Shown here piece after piece: positions 11,370-46,914 of a stretch of DNA of 64,000 nucleotides. Below the pieces are notes generated by a model. That model made no database searches and was not told the origin of the DNA. It worked only from the letters and a program-made list of their open reading frames with translations. The DNA lies in contig NZ_NCSM01000007.1 of assembly GCF_002224125.1 (NCBI RefSeq), positions 793,371-857,370 of the forward strand, written 5' to 3'. The DNA is from Streptomyces sp. NBS 14/10. GTDB lineage: Bacteria > Actinomycetota > Actinomycetes > Streptomycetales > Streptomycetaceae. The position numbers were made by a program, and so were the translations under genes. The first letter of the stretch is position 1. The number at the start of each line of letters is the position of its first letter.

Positions 11370-12551
11370 TCAGACCGCCGCCGCCACCGGGGTCTCGCGC
11401 CGCGCCTCGCGTCGGCGCAGGGATACCGTCAGGCCGAGCGTGGCCAGCGCGACGAGCATCATCAGCGCGCTGGTCCACACCGGCGAGCGGAAGCCGAGGC
11501 CCGCGTCGATGGCGAGCCCGCCGAACCACGGGCCCGCCGTGTTGCCGACGTTGAACGCCGCGGTGGTGAACCCGCCCGCGAGGGTGGGCGCGCCATCGGC
11601 CAGATAGAAGGTGCGCGAGGTCAGGACCGGCGCGATGCCGAACGCGAGCAGGCCCTGGACGAAGACCAGCACGAACACGGCCACCGCGACCCCGGCGCTC
11701 AGGGCCAGCACGGCCCAGCCGAGCGTCAGCGCGCTCATGCCGGTCAGCAGGATCAGATACGGCCGGGCGTCGGCGATCCGGCCCCCGACGGTGATGCCGA
11801 CGAACGCGCCCACGCCGAACAGCACCAGCATCGCGGGCACCCACCCGGCGCCGTAGCCGCTGACCTCGGTGAGCAGCGGGGCGAGATAGGTGAAGGTGCA
11901 GAAGGTCGCGCCCTGGACCAGGGCGTTCATGGCGTAGGCGGTCAGCAGCTGGGCACCGACCAGCGAACGCAGCTCGGCGCGCAGCCCGGCCGAGGGCGCG
12001 TCGGGGCGACCGGCCGGGATCGAGGCCAGGACGGCGGCGACACCGGCGACGGACAGTACGGCCACCGCCCAGAACGCCGACCGCCAGCCCCACAGCTGGC
12101 CCAGCACAGCCCCGCCGGGCACACCCGCCACACAGGCCACCGTGACCCCGCCCACGACCACGGACATCGCACGGGCCTTTTTGTCCGGCTCGACCATGCT
12201 GACCGCGGCCCCCGCGGCCACGGCCCAGAAACCGGCGCTGGCGAGCGCGCCGACGATCCGGGTCGCCAGCAGTACGCCGTAGTCGTCCGTGACCGCCCCG
12301 ACGACATGGGCGGCGGCGAACGCCACCAGGAACGCCACCAGCGCGGTCCGCCGCGGCCAGCGCAAGGTGAGCATCGCGAGCAGTGGCCCGCCGACGACCA
12401 TTCCGATGGCGAACGCCGAGGTCAGAAAGCCGGCCTGGGGGATGGAGACGCCGAGGTCGGCGGCGATGTCCGGCACCAGACCGGACAGCATGAACTCGGA
12501 AGTGGCCTGGGCGAATACGGCCAGTCCGAGCATGTAGACGGCAAAGGGCAT
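11370..12551 (-). CDS. MFS efflux transporter, chloramphenicol-exporter (Cml/Cmx) type
   Basis: A 393-residue, 12-helix major facilitator. The N-terminus MPFAVYMLGLAVFAQATSEF and the segments LVPDIAADLGVS and FCTFTYLAPLLT closely resemble the Streptomyces chloramphenicol exporters Cml/CmlR. The start ATG 12551 is preceded by GGGGAG. An in-frame GTG at 12641 would add 30 charged residues and is unlikely. The SD is complementary to an upstream segment (see 12556-12617), so expression may be controlled by RNA folding, as reported for cml-type genes. The drug exported here is inferred. Confidence 0.87.
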   Translation of the reverse strand: MPFAVYMLGLAVFAQATSEFMLSGLVPDIAADLGVSIPQAGFLTSAFAIGMVVGGPLLAMLTLRWPRRTALVAFLVAFAAAHVVGAVTDDYGVLLATRIVGALASAGFWAVAAGAAVSMVEPDKKARAMSVVVGGVTVACVAGVPGGAVLGQLWGWRSAFWAVAVLSVAGVAAVLASIPAGRPDAPSAGLRAELRSLVGAQLLTAYAMNALVQGATFCTFTYLAPLLTEVSGYGAGWVPAMLVLFGVGAFVGITVGGRIADARPYLILLTGMSALTLGWAVLALSAGVAVAVFVLVFVQGLLAFGIAPVLTSRTFYLADGAPTLAGGFTTAAFNVGNTAGPWFGGLAIDAGLGFRSPVWTSALMMLVALATLGLTVSLRRREARRETPVAAAV

Positions 12552-12555
12552 ACGG

Positions 12556-12617
12556 GAACTCCCCGAGTGGAAGTGACGGAATCTGCGAACGGGCAGCGTT
12601 CGCCGACGGGAGAGTTC
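12556..12617 (-). promoter_or_regulatory. SD-sequestering leader of the MFS exporter
   Basis: On the minus strand the SD segment GGGGAGTTC (12564-12556) can pair with GAACTCTCCC (12617-12608). Between them sits a perfect 7-bp hairpin, GCGAACG/CGTTCGC (12585-12603). The nested layout would hide the ribosome site until the outer stem is opened, as in translational attenuation. No clear leader peptide was identified. Confidence 0.5.
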
Positions 12618-12640
12618 GCCGAGGTGCGCTCGCCAGAACA

Positions 12641-12672
12641 CGTCACCACACTCGAGTCAAGCGTGTGTGACG
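12641..12672. promoter_or_regulatory. Dyad upstream of MFS leader
   Basis: CGTCACCACAC (12641-12651) and GTGTGTGACG (12663-12672) are inverted copies differing by one inserted C, with an 11-base spacer. A minus-strand TTGACT lies within the spacer (12660-12655) and could be a -35 element, which would make this an operator over the exporter promoter. No matching -10 is convincing. Confidence 0.4.
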
Positions 12673-12745
12673 GAAGGGAGCGCAAGGGAAAGGGATGGGA
12701 ATCGAGTCCGGTCGGAGTCGTCCGCTGCCCATGATTAAGGGGTTT

Positions 12746-13003
12746 TCCGTAATTCGCCGACCCTGCGAGCTGGTATGGTCGGCTATGGCCGATAAGACGG
12801 CCTGCGTGAGTCAACCGCATGAGGTATTGACCACCGGCTTGCCGGTACAACACCTGCGGCAGCCCGCTGAACTGCGGGCCTCTGCTCACCGAATTCCGGA
12901 TAGGCCCCGAGCAACCCCGGATGAGACACCGCAAGGTGACCACGCCGGAGCGCCCGGACCAGCCGAACCGGATGCAGTCCGTAGCTCCTTCGGGAATTAC
13001 GGA
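12746..13003 (+). ncRNA. Candidate structured RNA, family not recognised
   Basis: About 258 bases in a 560-base gap hold no plausible gene but many nested helices. A 10-bp closing stem joins TCCGTAATTC (12746-12755) and GAATTACGGA (12994-13003). Inside it are GCCGACC/GGTCGGC (12756-12762/12777-12783), GGCCG/CGGCC (12787-12791/12798-12802), CCGC-AGGT with ACCT-GCGG (12815-12825/12852-12859), and ACCGG-CTTG-CCGGT (12833-12846). Further on are GCCCGC/GCGGGC (12862-12867/12874-12879), TCCGG/CCGGA (12895-12899/12917-12921), CACC-GCAA-GGTG (12927-12938) and CGGAC/GTCCG (12955-12959/12977-12981). Three loops are canonical stable tetraloops with their preferred closing pairs on the plus strand only: G(CTTG)C, C(GCAA)G, and C(TTCG)G in an alternative 3' hairpin. 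Both flanking genes read minus, so this would be a stand-alone transcript. Confidence 0.6.
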
Positions 13004-13029
13004 TCAAGTCTTAGGGTCTGTCGGACTCC

Positions 13030-13061
13030 GGGCTGCTCATGATCCCGCACCGTAGCAGCCC
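13030..13061 (+). terminator. Possible terminator of the structured RNA
   Basis: GGGCTGCT (13030-13037) and AGCAGCCC (13054-13061) form an 8-bp perfect inverted repeat 27 bases after the closing helix of the candidate RNA. Confidence 0.35.
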
Positions 13062-13112
13062 CGCCCATGCCTGTGCCACGGATTTGCCGGTGTACCGGTG
13101 GGGTTGCTTCAG

Positions 13113-13140
13113 CGGTGGGGCCGCCAGGGTGGCCCCACCG
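13113..13140 (-). terminator. Terminator after the PH-domain operon
   Basis: A perfect 10-bp inverted repeat, CGGTGGGGCC (13113-13122) and GGCCCCACCG (13131-13140), with an 8-base loop, lies 20 bases past the stop of the minus-strand PH-domain gene. Confidence 0.75.
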
Positions 13141-13146
13141 GTCACT

Positions 13147-13188
13147 TCACAAGGAACTCGTCACAAGGAACCCGTCACAAGGAACTCG
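13147..13188. repeat. Three tandem 14-bp units across a stop codon
   Basis: Units TCACAAGGAACTCG (13147-13160), TCACAAGGAACCCG (13161-13174) and TCACAAGGAACTCG (13175-13188). The stop codon of the minus-strand PH-domain gene is the TCA at 13161-13163, in the middle unit. Since 14 is not a multiple of 3, each copy changes the C-terminal reading. Confidence 0.95.
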
Positions 13189-14897
13189 TCGAGGATCCCC
13201 GGAGCCGCCGCATCCGCGAATGCCGCCGCCTCCCCGGCCGCCATATCGGGGATGCGGTAGCCGTCCTCGCCCGCCGCGACGGCCGCCGTCACGGTCGTGA
13301 CCCCGGCCCGGCGCGACATCGGGCTGTCGGTGAACGTCCAGGCCAGTACGGCCCGGCGGTCCAGGGCGACCGTGTCGCGGCTGAAGGTGCCGGAGCGGAT
13401 GAGCAGATAGCCGTCGTGACCACCCGCCAGACCGTGGCCGAGCGCGCGATACGCGTCGCGCGCCAGGGCGTACAGGACGGGGGTCGCGACGAGGAGGAAG
13501 CCCCCGGCGCAGTACAGCAGTACGGGCGTCAGCAGCGCCCCGAGCACGGCGAGGGCGGCCGTCACCGGAGCCACGACCCACACCATGCCGCGCATGACCC
13601 GGCGGCGGAGCGCGGCGCGCGGATGCCGGGTCAACTCGGGCCGGCCGAAGAGCGCTTCACCGATGGGCGCGTGGGCAGGCCGGGTGGGCGAGACGGGCCG
13701 GACGTGCGAGGCGGACCTGGCGTACGAGACAGACCGGACGGGCGGAACAGACCTGGTGTGCGAGGCGGACTGGACGGACGAGGCGGGCAGAGCGTGCGAG
13801 GCGGACGGGGAATGCGAGCCGGACCGGGCGTGCCGGCCGCGTGGCGCGCCGGGGCGCGCGAGCATACCGGTCAGCACCCGCAGGGCCTCCGCGCGCGGGG
13901 CGGGCGGGAGCACCGCGCTGCGCGTACGGTTCTCCTCACGGTTGCCCAAGCCACTCGCCACGGCCCGTACGGCCGCGCCCCCGGCCGCGCGCAGCAGCAT
14001 CGGTTCGCGCAGCACCGCGCCGCGCAGCCGGGCGCGTTCGATGGAGACCGAGCGGGTGGTGAGCAGTCCGCGCCGCACCTGGAGGGTGCCCGCGTCGGCC
14101 CACTCCAGGCGGTACCGCCACCAGTTCTCGGCGTAGACGGCGACCGCGCCGACGCCGCCCACGGCGGCCACGGCCAGCAGGGCGAGCGGGATGGTCACCC
14201 ACAGCACGCTGTTGCCGAAGTCCTCAAAGGCGTGGCGGACGGGGCCGATGCGCCACGGCTCCACGCCAACGCCGTCCAGTACCCGCCACACCGCGCCCAC
14301 GACCACGAACACCCCTCCGAAGACCCAGAACGTGAACGGGGCGTAGCGCAGCCAGCGCGGGTCCCCGGTGGACAGGACCGGCTCGGCGGCGGTGTCGCCG
14401 GTGCCCGCGCGGGCCAGCAGTTCGGCGCGCAGCCGCTCGGCGGCGGGGCGGGTGAGGGCTTCCAGGGTGAGCCCGTCGCGGCTGCCGTTCGCGCCGGTGG
14501 TGCCCGCGCGCAGCACGACGAGGCCGAAGAGCCGCTGTACGGGGTTGGCTGTCAGGTCGACGTTGCGTACGCGGTGCAGCGGGATGGCGCGCCGGCGGCG
14601 GGTGAACAGGCCGCTGCGCAGCTCGAAGGAGTCGGCGGTGACGCGGTAGCGGGTGCGGGACCAGCCGATCAGCCCGGCGATGGTGACGACGGCGAAGGAG
14701 GCCGCGACGATGGCGAGGGTGATCCAGGCCCGGTTGCCCAGGCGGCCGCCGGTGGCCAGCGCGGTGAGCGCGAGCGAGCCGAGCGGGGCCGCCATCCAGC
14801 TGCAGTGGACGGCGATGGTGCGGGGGTCGAGCGAACGCCACCCGGCCCCCTGCGAGTCGGCTGCCGGGTGGCCGGCGCCCATGAGGTGAGCGGTCAC
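13161..14897 (-). CDS. PH-domain membrane protein, YdbT-like
   Basis: A 578-residue membrane protein with pairs of hydrophobic helices (about residues 38-80, 190-260 and 430-480), each followed by a bacterial PH (bPH2/DUF304) domain. The domains include YRVTADSFELRSGLFTRRRR, RYRLEWADAGTLQVRRGLL and DGYLLIRSGTFSRDTVALD. A Ser/Arg/Pro-rich low-complexity stretch (about residues 350-410) interrupts the protein. The GTG start overlaps the YdbS-like stop by 4 bases. In Bacillus the YdbS-YdbT pair protects against certain antimicrobial peptides, so a cell-envelope defence role is a reasonable inference. Tandem 14-base repeats cover its 3' end. Confidence 0.82.
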   Translation of the reverse strand: MTAHLMGAGHPAADSQGAGWRSLDPRTIAVHCSWMAAPLGSLALTALATGGRLGNRAWITLAIVAASFAVVTIAGLIGWSRTRYRVTADSFELRSGLFTRRRRAIPLHRVRNVDLTANPVQRLFGLVVLRAGTTGANGSRDGLTLEALTRPAAERLRAELLARAGTGDTAAEPVLSTGDPRWLRYAPFTFWVFGGVFVVVGAVWRVLDGVGVEPWRIGPVRHAFEDFGNSVLWVTIPLALLAVAAVGGVGAVAVYAENWWRYRLEWADAGTLQVRRGLLTTRSVSIERARLRGAVLREPMLLRAAGGAAVRAVASGLGNREENRTRSAVLPPAPRAEALRVLTGMLARPGAPRGRHARSGSHSPSASHALPASSVQSASHTRSVPPVRSVSYARSASHVRPVSPTRPAHAPIGEALFGRPELTRHPRAALRRRVMRGMVWVVAPVTAALAVLGALLTPVLLYCAGGFLLVATPVLYALARDAYRALGHGLAGGHDGYLLIRSGTFSRDTVALDRRAVLAWTFTDSPMSRRAGVTTVTAAVAAGEDGYRIPDMAAGEAAAFADAAAPGILDEFLVTGSL

Positions 14898-46512: not shown

Positions 46513-46867
46513 ATTCACCAAGTCCCCATAAGCCGCACAACACCCATACACCGGAGCCTTGATCTTCAGAACGGGGCTCTTGCCCTTTTACGCCCCCATA
46601 TGGCAAGAGACGCAGATCACAGGCGACCGAACGTAACCATCGCGGGGGGTGGGGAGTCTAATGGGGCGGTGAGGGTTCGTCTTGGGGGACGGATCCCACT
46701 ACGCGTGGCCGGGGCGACGTACCCGGGGAGCTTTGAGCGGCCCTCCCGTAACGTACGCGTCCCGGCAGCTCGCGTTGTGCGTGACGACAGTGTGGGCTTC
46801 TGTGGGCTTTACTCGGCCAACAGACCCCCGGCCGGATCCCGTGGGGGGAATCCGTAACCGGGAATGG
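46513..46867. other. Gap after copA, mostly unexplained
   Basis: CTCTTGCC (46577-46584) and GGCAAGAG (46602-46609), a perfect 8-bp inverted repeat, may be the copA terminator. The remaining 250 bases contain short open frames without convincing SD or codon bias (for example 46600-46857) and several GGGG runs. The 46868-46914 terminator ends a plus-strand segment, so a small transcript from 46620 onward is possible but not shown. Confidence 0.4.
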
Positions 46868-46914
46868 AAAGCGCCCCGCTCCGACCCGTGGGGGGATCGG
46901 CAGCGGGGCGCTTT
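46868..46914. terminator. Bidirectional terminator after gltA
   Basis: AAAGCGCCCCGCT (46868-46880) and AGCGGGGCGCTTT (46902-46914) are a perfect 13-bp inverted repeat ending in AAA/TTT. It serves citrate synthase (minus) and anything reading from the copA side. Confidence 0.85.

Follow-up and report, generated by a model that had tools for sequence, protein, structure and literature searches.

A miniature Streptomyces element that probably carries the guide RNA gene of a tnpB-bearing IS5-like transposon

TnpB nucleases normally go with the IS200/IS605 and IS607 families, as stated in the excerpt of PMC10711439. The same excerpt describes TnpB scaffolds that can absorb fixed flanking bases and a pseudoknot known in TnpB reRNAs, and an excerpt of PMC10278001 reports that TnpB processes its own mRNA into omegaRNA. 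Eukaryotic Fanzor elements (e.g., SfAV Fanzor1) combine a TnpB-like nuclease with a terminal-repeat transposon, and their target bases adjoin the scaffold. Members of the IS5 family make a short target duplication at CTAG/YTAR.

In the 64,000-nucleotide stretch of Streptomyces sp. NBS 14/10 DNA analysed here (the window), the segment 12735-13014 is probably an omegaRNA-only, non-autonomous derivative of an IS5-like transposon with tnpB; it would be moved by a transposase and would provide a guide for TnpB in trans. As in the omegaRNA/reRNA of IS200/IS605 elements (ISDra2; RNA processing by AmaTnpB), a structured RNA lies at the right end of the family, on the tnpB strand and overlapping the end of the ORF, and may run to the element boundary (mapped by empty sites), where the flank is a candidate guide. 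Unlike in IS200/IS605, a DDE transposase and terminal inverted repeats are found here instead of a Y1 transposase, TnpB has about 670 aa, and the RNA is kept in copies lacking tnpB. With the IS607 TnpB reRNA (ISXfa1) the locus shares fixed flanking bases that may belong to the scaffold and a conceivable pseudoknot near the 3' end; in contrast to ISXfa1, the target is CTAG instead of GG, and no serine recombinase was found among the ORFs searched. The Fanzor arrangement is comparable, but here the host is bacterial, the transposase is IS5-like and RNA-only miniatures occur. The component parts are of known kinds; their combination is absent from the literature matches listed, whose titles and abstract beginnings mention neither TnpB on an IS5-type element nor omegaRNA-only miniatures (absence from print is not thereby shown). 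The features are collected in Table 1.

Table 1. Features of the miniature element and its surroundings in the window.
Feature	Position	Strand	Support
Whole miniature element (TTAAGGGG...GTCTTAG), without tnpB or transposase	12735..13014	+	BLAST copies, alignment, end mapping
Left terminal inverted repeat TTAAGGGGTTTTCCGTAATTC; common family form CTAAGAGGTGTTCCGTAATTC	12735..12755	+	
Right terminal inverted repeat GAATTACGGATCAAGTCTTAG; final three bases TAG match target site	12994..13014	+	
OmegaRNA/reRNA scaffold candidate	12786..13014	+	Covariation, 22 TnpB-less and 39 TnpB-bearing copies
Hairpin 1, 12786-12791/12798-12803	12786..12803	+	Double changes in 5/6 pairs across the set
Long helix 12804-12811/12884-12890	12804..12890	+	Covariation alignments
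Inside long helix: 12815-12818/12856-12859, 12827-12828/12849-12850, 12862-12867/12874-12879		+	
Inside long helix: 12834-12837/12842-12845, CTTG loop		+	
Second domain: 12895-12899/12968-12972, 12907-12912/12952-12957, 12917-12920/12945-12948	12895..12972	+	
Second domain: 12927-12930/12935-12938, GCAA loop		+	
3' terminal hairpin 12977-12982/12999-13004 and 12987-12988/12993-12994, TTCG loop	12977..13004	+	
Pseudoknot candidate, UGAG with CUUA 13010-13013, 4 bp	12922..12925	+	Inferred, weak
Right flank, candidate guide if the scaffold stops at the element boundary; length assumed	13015..13034	+	Inferred from TnpB biology
Leader-peptide ORF MSSPESDRP*; stop TAA completed by the element	13011..13040	-	Conserved
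Cmx/CmrA-type MFS efflux gene downstream of leader peptide	11370..12551	-	NF033135, 526 bits (cut-off 400)

The element is multi-copy. BLAST of 12730-13020 finds nine places in the own genome (counting that of the window; some are short) and matches in 32 of 392 genomes of the same genus. The alignment reaches at least 80 bp in 20 of these 32 genomes, counting the own one; the remaining matches are short. A pattern scan of the contigs of 84,980 genomes gives 41 loci, all Streptomyces by title. The genome of Streptomyces sp. AP-93 alone contains 28 places, 12 of which (with the probe) are 91-100% identical over at least 270 bases. A search of a phage collection gave no match to the element, and a plasmid search gave one matching Streptomyces plasmid, which is without annotation. 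The collected set comprises 67 copies with different right flanks; tnpB is matched in 43 and not in 24, and CTTAG is the terminal sequence in 62 of the 67. In L117, a second CTAAGAG precedes the left end, a pattern that resembles insertion into another copy's left terminus.

The right ~220 nt of the miniature share homology with the 3' part of elements that bear tnpB. The miniature has kept just the two terminal repeats and the putative omegaRNA gene. Like bacterial MITEs, it is shorter than 300 bp, non-coding and multi-copy, with terminal repeats, and related elements of the autonomous, parental type exist; unlike in MITEs, its interior is a conserved candidate guide-RNA gene. The original prediction had placed a folded unit at 12746-13003, whereas the actual unit is the whole element, 12735-13014. 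The absence of a plausible gene is borne out: the three longer ORFs of the stretch (115 aa on the plus strand; 173 and 74 aa on the minus strand) give no Pfam family above the cut-off. Rfam (4227 models) likewise yields no match in 12500-13250, even at E<=10, in agreement with the earlier statement that RNase P RNA, tmRNA, 4.5S RNA, 6S-like RNA and familiar riboswitch classes are not resembled. Elsewhere in the window, the Scr2736 sRNA (RF02831) is located at 46825-46893 on the plus strand (52.9 bits) and tRNA-Arg at 2670-2742. The empty Rfam result could speak for an independent new gene for a small RNA or ribozyme that has nothing to do with mobile elements, but this is extremely improbable given the multiple copies, the defined ends and terminal repeats, the element-free relatives and the homology to tnpB 3' ends. 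What is retained of the earlier proposal of an unassigned trans-acting or ribozyme-like RNA is a structured RNA on the plus strand with a possible function in trans; the "unassigned" part falls away because the RNA is homologous to the (omega) RNA region at the right end of a transposon family with TnpB, and the "ribozyme-like" part is also dropped.

Full-length relatives of 2.4-3.1 kb are organized as terminal repeat, IS5-like DDE transposase, small ORF, tnpB, omegaRNA and terminal repeat. Their extents were obtained by comparing tnpB-bearing copies with each other, several of which reach 2.8-3.1 kb; motif detection of the left ends was unsuccessful in most of the 20 copies tried, and the element-element comparison succeeded. 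Next to the left repeat (CTAAGA..TGTTCCGTAATTC) stands a divergent gene whose domains are HTH_Tnp_4, DDE_Tnp_1 and DDE_Tnp_4. Both ends, transposase and tnpB occur together in 6 of 16 loci (L246, L248, L043, L089, L039 and L116), a set that holds two duplicate pairs, L046/L247 and L108/L246. Of the 24 copies in which 2.3 kb or more of upstream sequence is available, 10 have transposase pieces upstream of tnpB and 14 are without a match, the query having come from two of the ten positive copies. L114 also has transposase pieces and only 31 aa of tnpB left. The transposase frame is broken in most copies; L242, in which it is intact and a left repeat was recognised, ends at the contig end.

An intact transposase copy exceeds the Pfam cut-offs for PF01609 (44.4 bits), PF13613 (37.6 bits) and PF13359 (30.1 bits). 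Against the NCBIfam IS5 model NF033581 (cut-off 140), the composite transposase scores 41.6 bits and a transposase-only relative 122; the IS5_4 model is matched by the composite transposase in part, below its cut-off. Transposase-only relatives with related repeats are present in the same genomes, with 40% identity over 216 aligned positions. Such Streptomyces IS5-like elements (e.g., L227, 884 bp) share DDE_Tnp_4, HTH_Tnp_4, related repeats and CTAA...TTAG ends with the composite, which differs in adding the small ORF, tnpB and omegaRNA; the transposases of both types stay under the NCBIfam IS5 cut-off. The small ORF that separates the transposase from tnpB is conserved (L242 1929-2120, L246, L089 1553-1744), and its profile search gave an HTH_17 match only, below threshold. 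In the transposase-only L220, L226 and L230, additional ORFs seem to lie between the terminal repeats, by eye HAD-like in L220 and VOC-like in L226.

The RNA could also belong to an ordinary IS200/IS605 or IS607 element into which an unrelated DDE transposon has been nested. The usual company of TnpB favours this, as does the subterminal right-end hairpin, which presumably resembles IS200/605 ends. However, 21-22 bp separate the left repeat from the DDE gene in five loci (L242, L243, L043, L116 and L218), and this repeat matches both the right repeat and the left end of the miniature, and related repeats flank the transposase-only relatives. Moreover, none of the nine ORFs of at least 60 aa that separate tnpB from the left repeat in L243 is a Y1 or serine recombinase, only DDE being above the Pfam cut-off; six of the nine were also compared with NCBIfam, again with no Y1 or serine recombinase, and ORF pieces of L043, L046 and L089 likewise gave DDE only above the cut-off. 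A nested insertion is thus considered very unlikely, and the larger relatives suggest that TnpB rides a cut-and-paste transposon of a kind not commonly reported to carry it.

In the tnpB-bearing copies, an ORF for the ~670-aa protein extends into the RNA region, and the structured RNA lies at the right end on the tnpB strand, overlapping the 3' end of tnpB, with a conserved secondary structure, as is characteristic of omegaRNA. The tnpB frame is open across nearly the entire RNA, e.g., in L083 (2031-4121). This stretch appears to serve as protein tail and RNA scaffold at once. PF07282 is above its cut-off in two of three TnpB proteins (the third reaches 16.8 bits vs 26.3), whereas the NCBIfam model NF040570 (cut-off 100) remains at 48.2 and 25.3 bits; TnpB models match in part only. 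Across 34 aligned homologues, GGVDGNVSN, EDCD and four zinc-ribbon cysteines are kept at 90-100% per column; these we take to be the RuvC and zinc-ribbon residues of TnpB. Among 1049 homologues, the 120 listed come mostly from Streptomyces and commonly bear the name transposase or zinc ribbon protein. A sequence search for relatives of TnpB with a solved structure returned none at E<=10. Relatives with 43-48% identity are found on plasmids of Mycobacterium, Mycobacteroides and Euzebya (NZ_CP015269.1, NC_021278.1, NZ_CP012886.2, NZ_CP031166.1). Two long tnpB frames without interruption, C64 and C51, exist in the own genome and could supply TnpB.

The predicted RNA structure was derived from two alignments. 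The TnpB-less alignment contains 22 of 24 copies (L003 and L091 were dropped as truncated; L004 failed the filter), and the TnpB-bearing alignment contains 39 of 43 (L053, L071, L110 and L114 were left out as fragments or a near-duplicate). Compensatory changes are present in both. In the 22 TnpB-less copies, 55 internal pairs are paired in 97.9% of 1210 cells and 16 pairs (71 cells) are doubly changed, values reached by 0 of 500 shuffles. In the 39 TnpB-bearing copies, 97.3% of 2083 cells are paired and 21 pairs (121 cells) are doubly changed, again with 0 of 500 shuffles; in both cases the structures come from the same alignments, which gives them an advantage over slid controls, and relatedness remains after shuffling. 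The CTTG, GCAA and TTCG loops noted earlier all lie in conserved helices. The outermost pair of hairpin 1 is U-U in the window copy. Within the pseudoknot candidate, a fifth pair is possible in the window but lost in 17 of the 22 TnpB-less copies, and a 5-bp form was rejected.

The 10-bp closing stem of the original prediction (12746-12755/12994-13003) does not hold as an RNA helix. It is paired at 81.0% in the 22 copies versus 81.4% in shuffles (395 of 500 as high), is without covariation and competes with the 3' terminal hairpin; full complementarity is found in the window copy and the nearest aligned copies, L002 and L009, as expected of the terminal inverted repeat that it represents. The fold itself is well below chance, with -118.3 kcal/mol on the plus strand (z -4.88; 0 of 200 shuffles as low), and the minus strand reaches -131.8 kcal/mol (z -5.01). 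Folding energy cannot fix the orientation, because both strands are at z of about -5, and was discarded as proof of it. The plus-strand assignment is nevertheless favoured by G-U over A-C cells (75 vs 17 in the TnpB-less copies and 155 vs 38 in the TnpB-bearing copies) and by the tnpB coding strand of the relatives.

The RNA of the miniature could be a functionless, decaying leftover of the tnpB 3' end in a dead relic mobilised via its terminal repeats alone. Consistent with this, the window element is without tnpB or any other family-supported protein, the pooled covariation could be inherited from tnpB-bearing ancestors, and double changes within one genome (12 AP-93 copies) concern only 2 pairs. 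However, among these 12 TnpB-less copies divergence is lowest at paired sites (0.042), intermediate in unpaired RNA (0.085) and highest (0.172) in the left part, which includes the terminal repeat, and the 11 copies besides the probe keep 91-94% identity to it over at least 270 bases. Since paired sites diverge least and the left part most, retention of the RNA itself, beyond the ends alone, is suggested. A dead relic is therefore considered unlikely, and the omegaRNA-only derivative remains the preferred reading.

Insertion occurs at CTAG. At seven of seven AP-93 sites searched for element-free relatives (L100 and six of ten further insertion sites), CTAG stands just before the right flank in at least one such relative. 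L100 is the clearest case: the CTAG is common to the TAG stops of two convergent genes (empty sites L150, L152, L155 and L156). For L113 and L121, the nearest element-free relatives read TCAG (TGA stop), not CTAG. Exactly one coding-like ORF enters the element in 45 of 67 right flanks (21 have none and 1 is ambiguous), by a lenient criterion, as an open plus-strand frame is also found in 33 of 67 flanks. In 41 of these 45, the ORF ends in frame at a TAA stop rebuilt by the element (binomial P 8e-16), the other frames accounting for 2 and 2. Among the 25 copies with a recognisable left end, 2 of 10 scorable left flanks are in frame. The elements thus face a gene with their right end, given 41/45 right vs 2/10 left flanks in frame. 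At the left junction, bases 2-3 read TA in 13 of 25 copies, TG in 6 and other in 6, with no clean target duplication. The target is CTAG, usually the stop codon of a gene, which is rebuilt by the right end.

The window copy follows the leader peptide of the efflux gene. The exact motif MSSPESDR occurs in 19 of 33 loci entered (own and 17 other genomes; L058 and L283 are one and the same), and an orthologous exporter follows in 19 of 19. The MSSPESDR leader before Cmx/CmrA-type exporters looks like a drug-responsive leader. In relatives, it ends in CTAG in G070, G044, G313 and G075 and reads on in others. Thus for the window's own site CTAG is seen in element-free relatives on the right side only: in 392 genomes no two-sided empty site was found, the right side (leader peptide) alone being recovered, and the left flank of the window is unlike element-free relatives. 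In most relatives a CCACCGG/CCGGTGG-type hairpin follows the leader peptide (by eye); in the window the element takes its place.

The fold could act mainly on the minus strand, as a leader or attenuator of the Cmx/CmrA-like efflux gene. The position of the element between a conserved leader peptide and this gene fits such a role, as does the minus-strand fold, which is as far below chance. However, among 66 loci with a copy (1.9 to 13 kb each), the efflux gene is near the element at the window's own locus only, conservation favours plus-strand pairing, and element-free relatives carry a different hairpin there. A main function of this kind is very unlikely; a side effect of this one insertion is conceivable. 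Since the element sits at the leader stop, the leader transcript of the efflux gene would carry the antisense of the RNA. A 68-aa exporter piece (49%) is present in L083.

For the omegaRNA-only derivative, the following mechanism could be proposed. An IS5-like transposase supplied in trans would recognise the terminal repeats and move the element into CTAG; the window copy would have landed in this way at the leader-peptide stop of the efflux gene. A plus-strand RNA (about 12786-13014 plus flank) would be expressed and bound by TnpB from another copy, and TnpB could then cut CTAG-flanked alleles without the element, by which retention or copying-in would be favoured. Guidance in trans is plausible because processing of tnpB mRNA and flank-absorbing scaffolds are known (excerpts of PMC10278001 and PMC10711439). 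A search of the own genome for a second guide target gave three matches besides the own site, each with 3 mismatches, versus two control matches.

A broader reading would comprise a bacterial TnpB lineage outside IS200/605 and IS607, residing on an IS5-like transposon that targets CTAG stop codons; a scaffold that has absorbed the target TAG; guide-RNA-only miniatures that parasitise both transposase and nuclease; and a biased orientation, as it places the guide within conserved coding sequence. The case for and against this whole is judged to be evenly balanced. An IS5-like transposase paired with a bacterial TnpB would be of direct relevance to the question raised by Yoon et al. With many guide-RNA-only miniatures, whether RNA-guided cutting helps a protein-less element could be tested in one genome. 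Insertion at CTAG with rebuilding of the stop would be a simple account of low-harm spread in a GC-rich genome.
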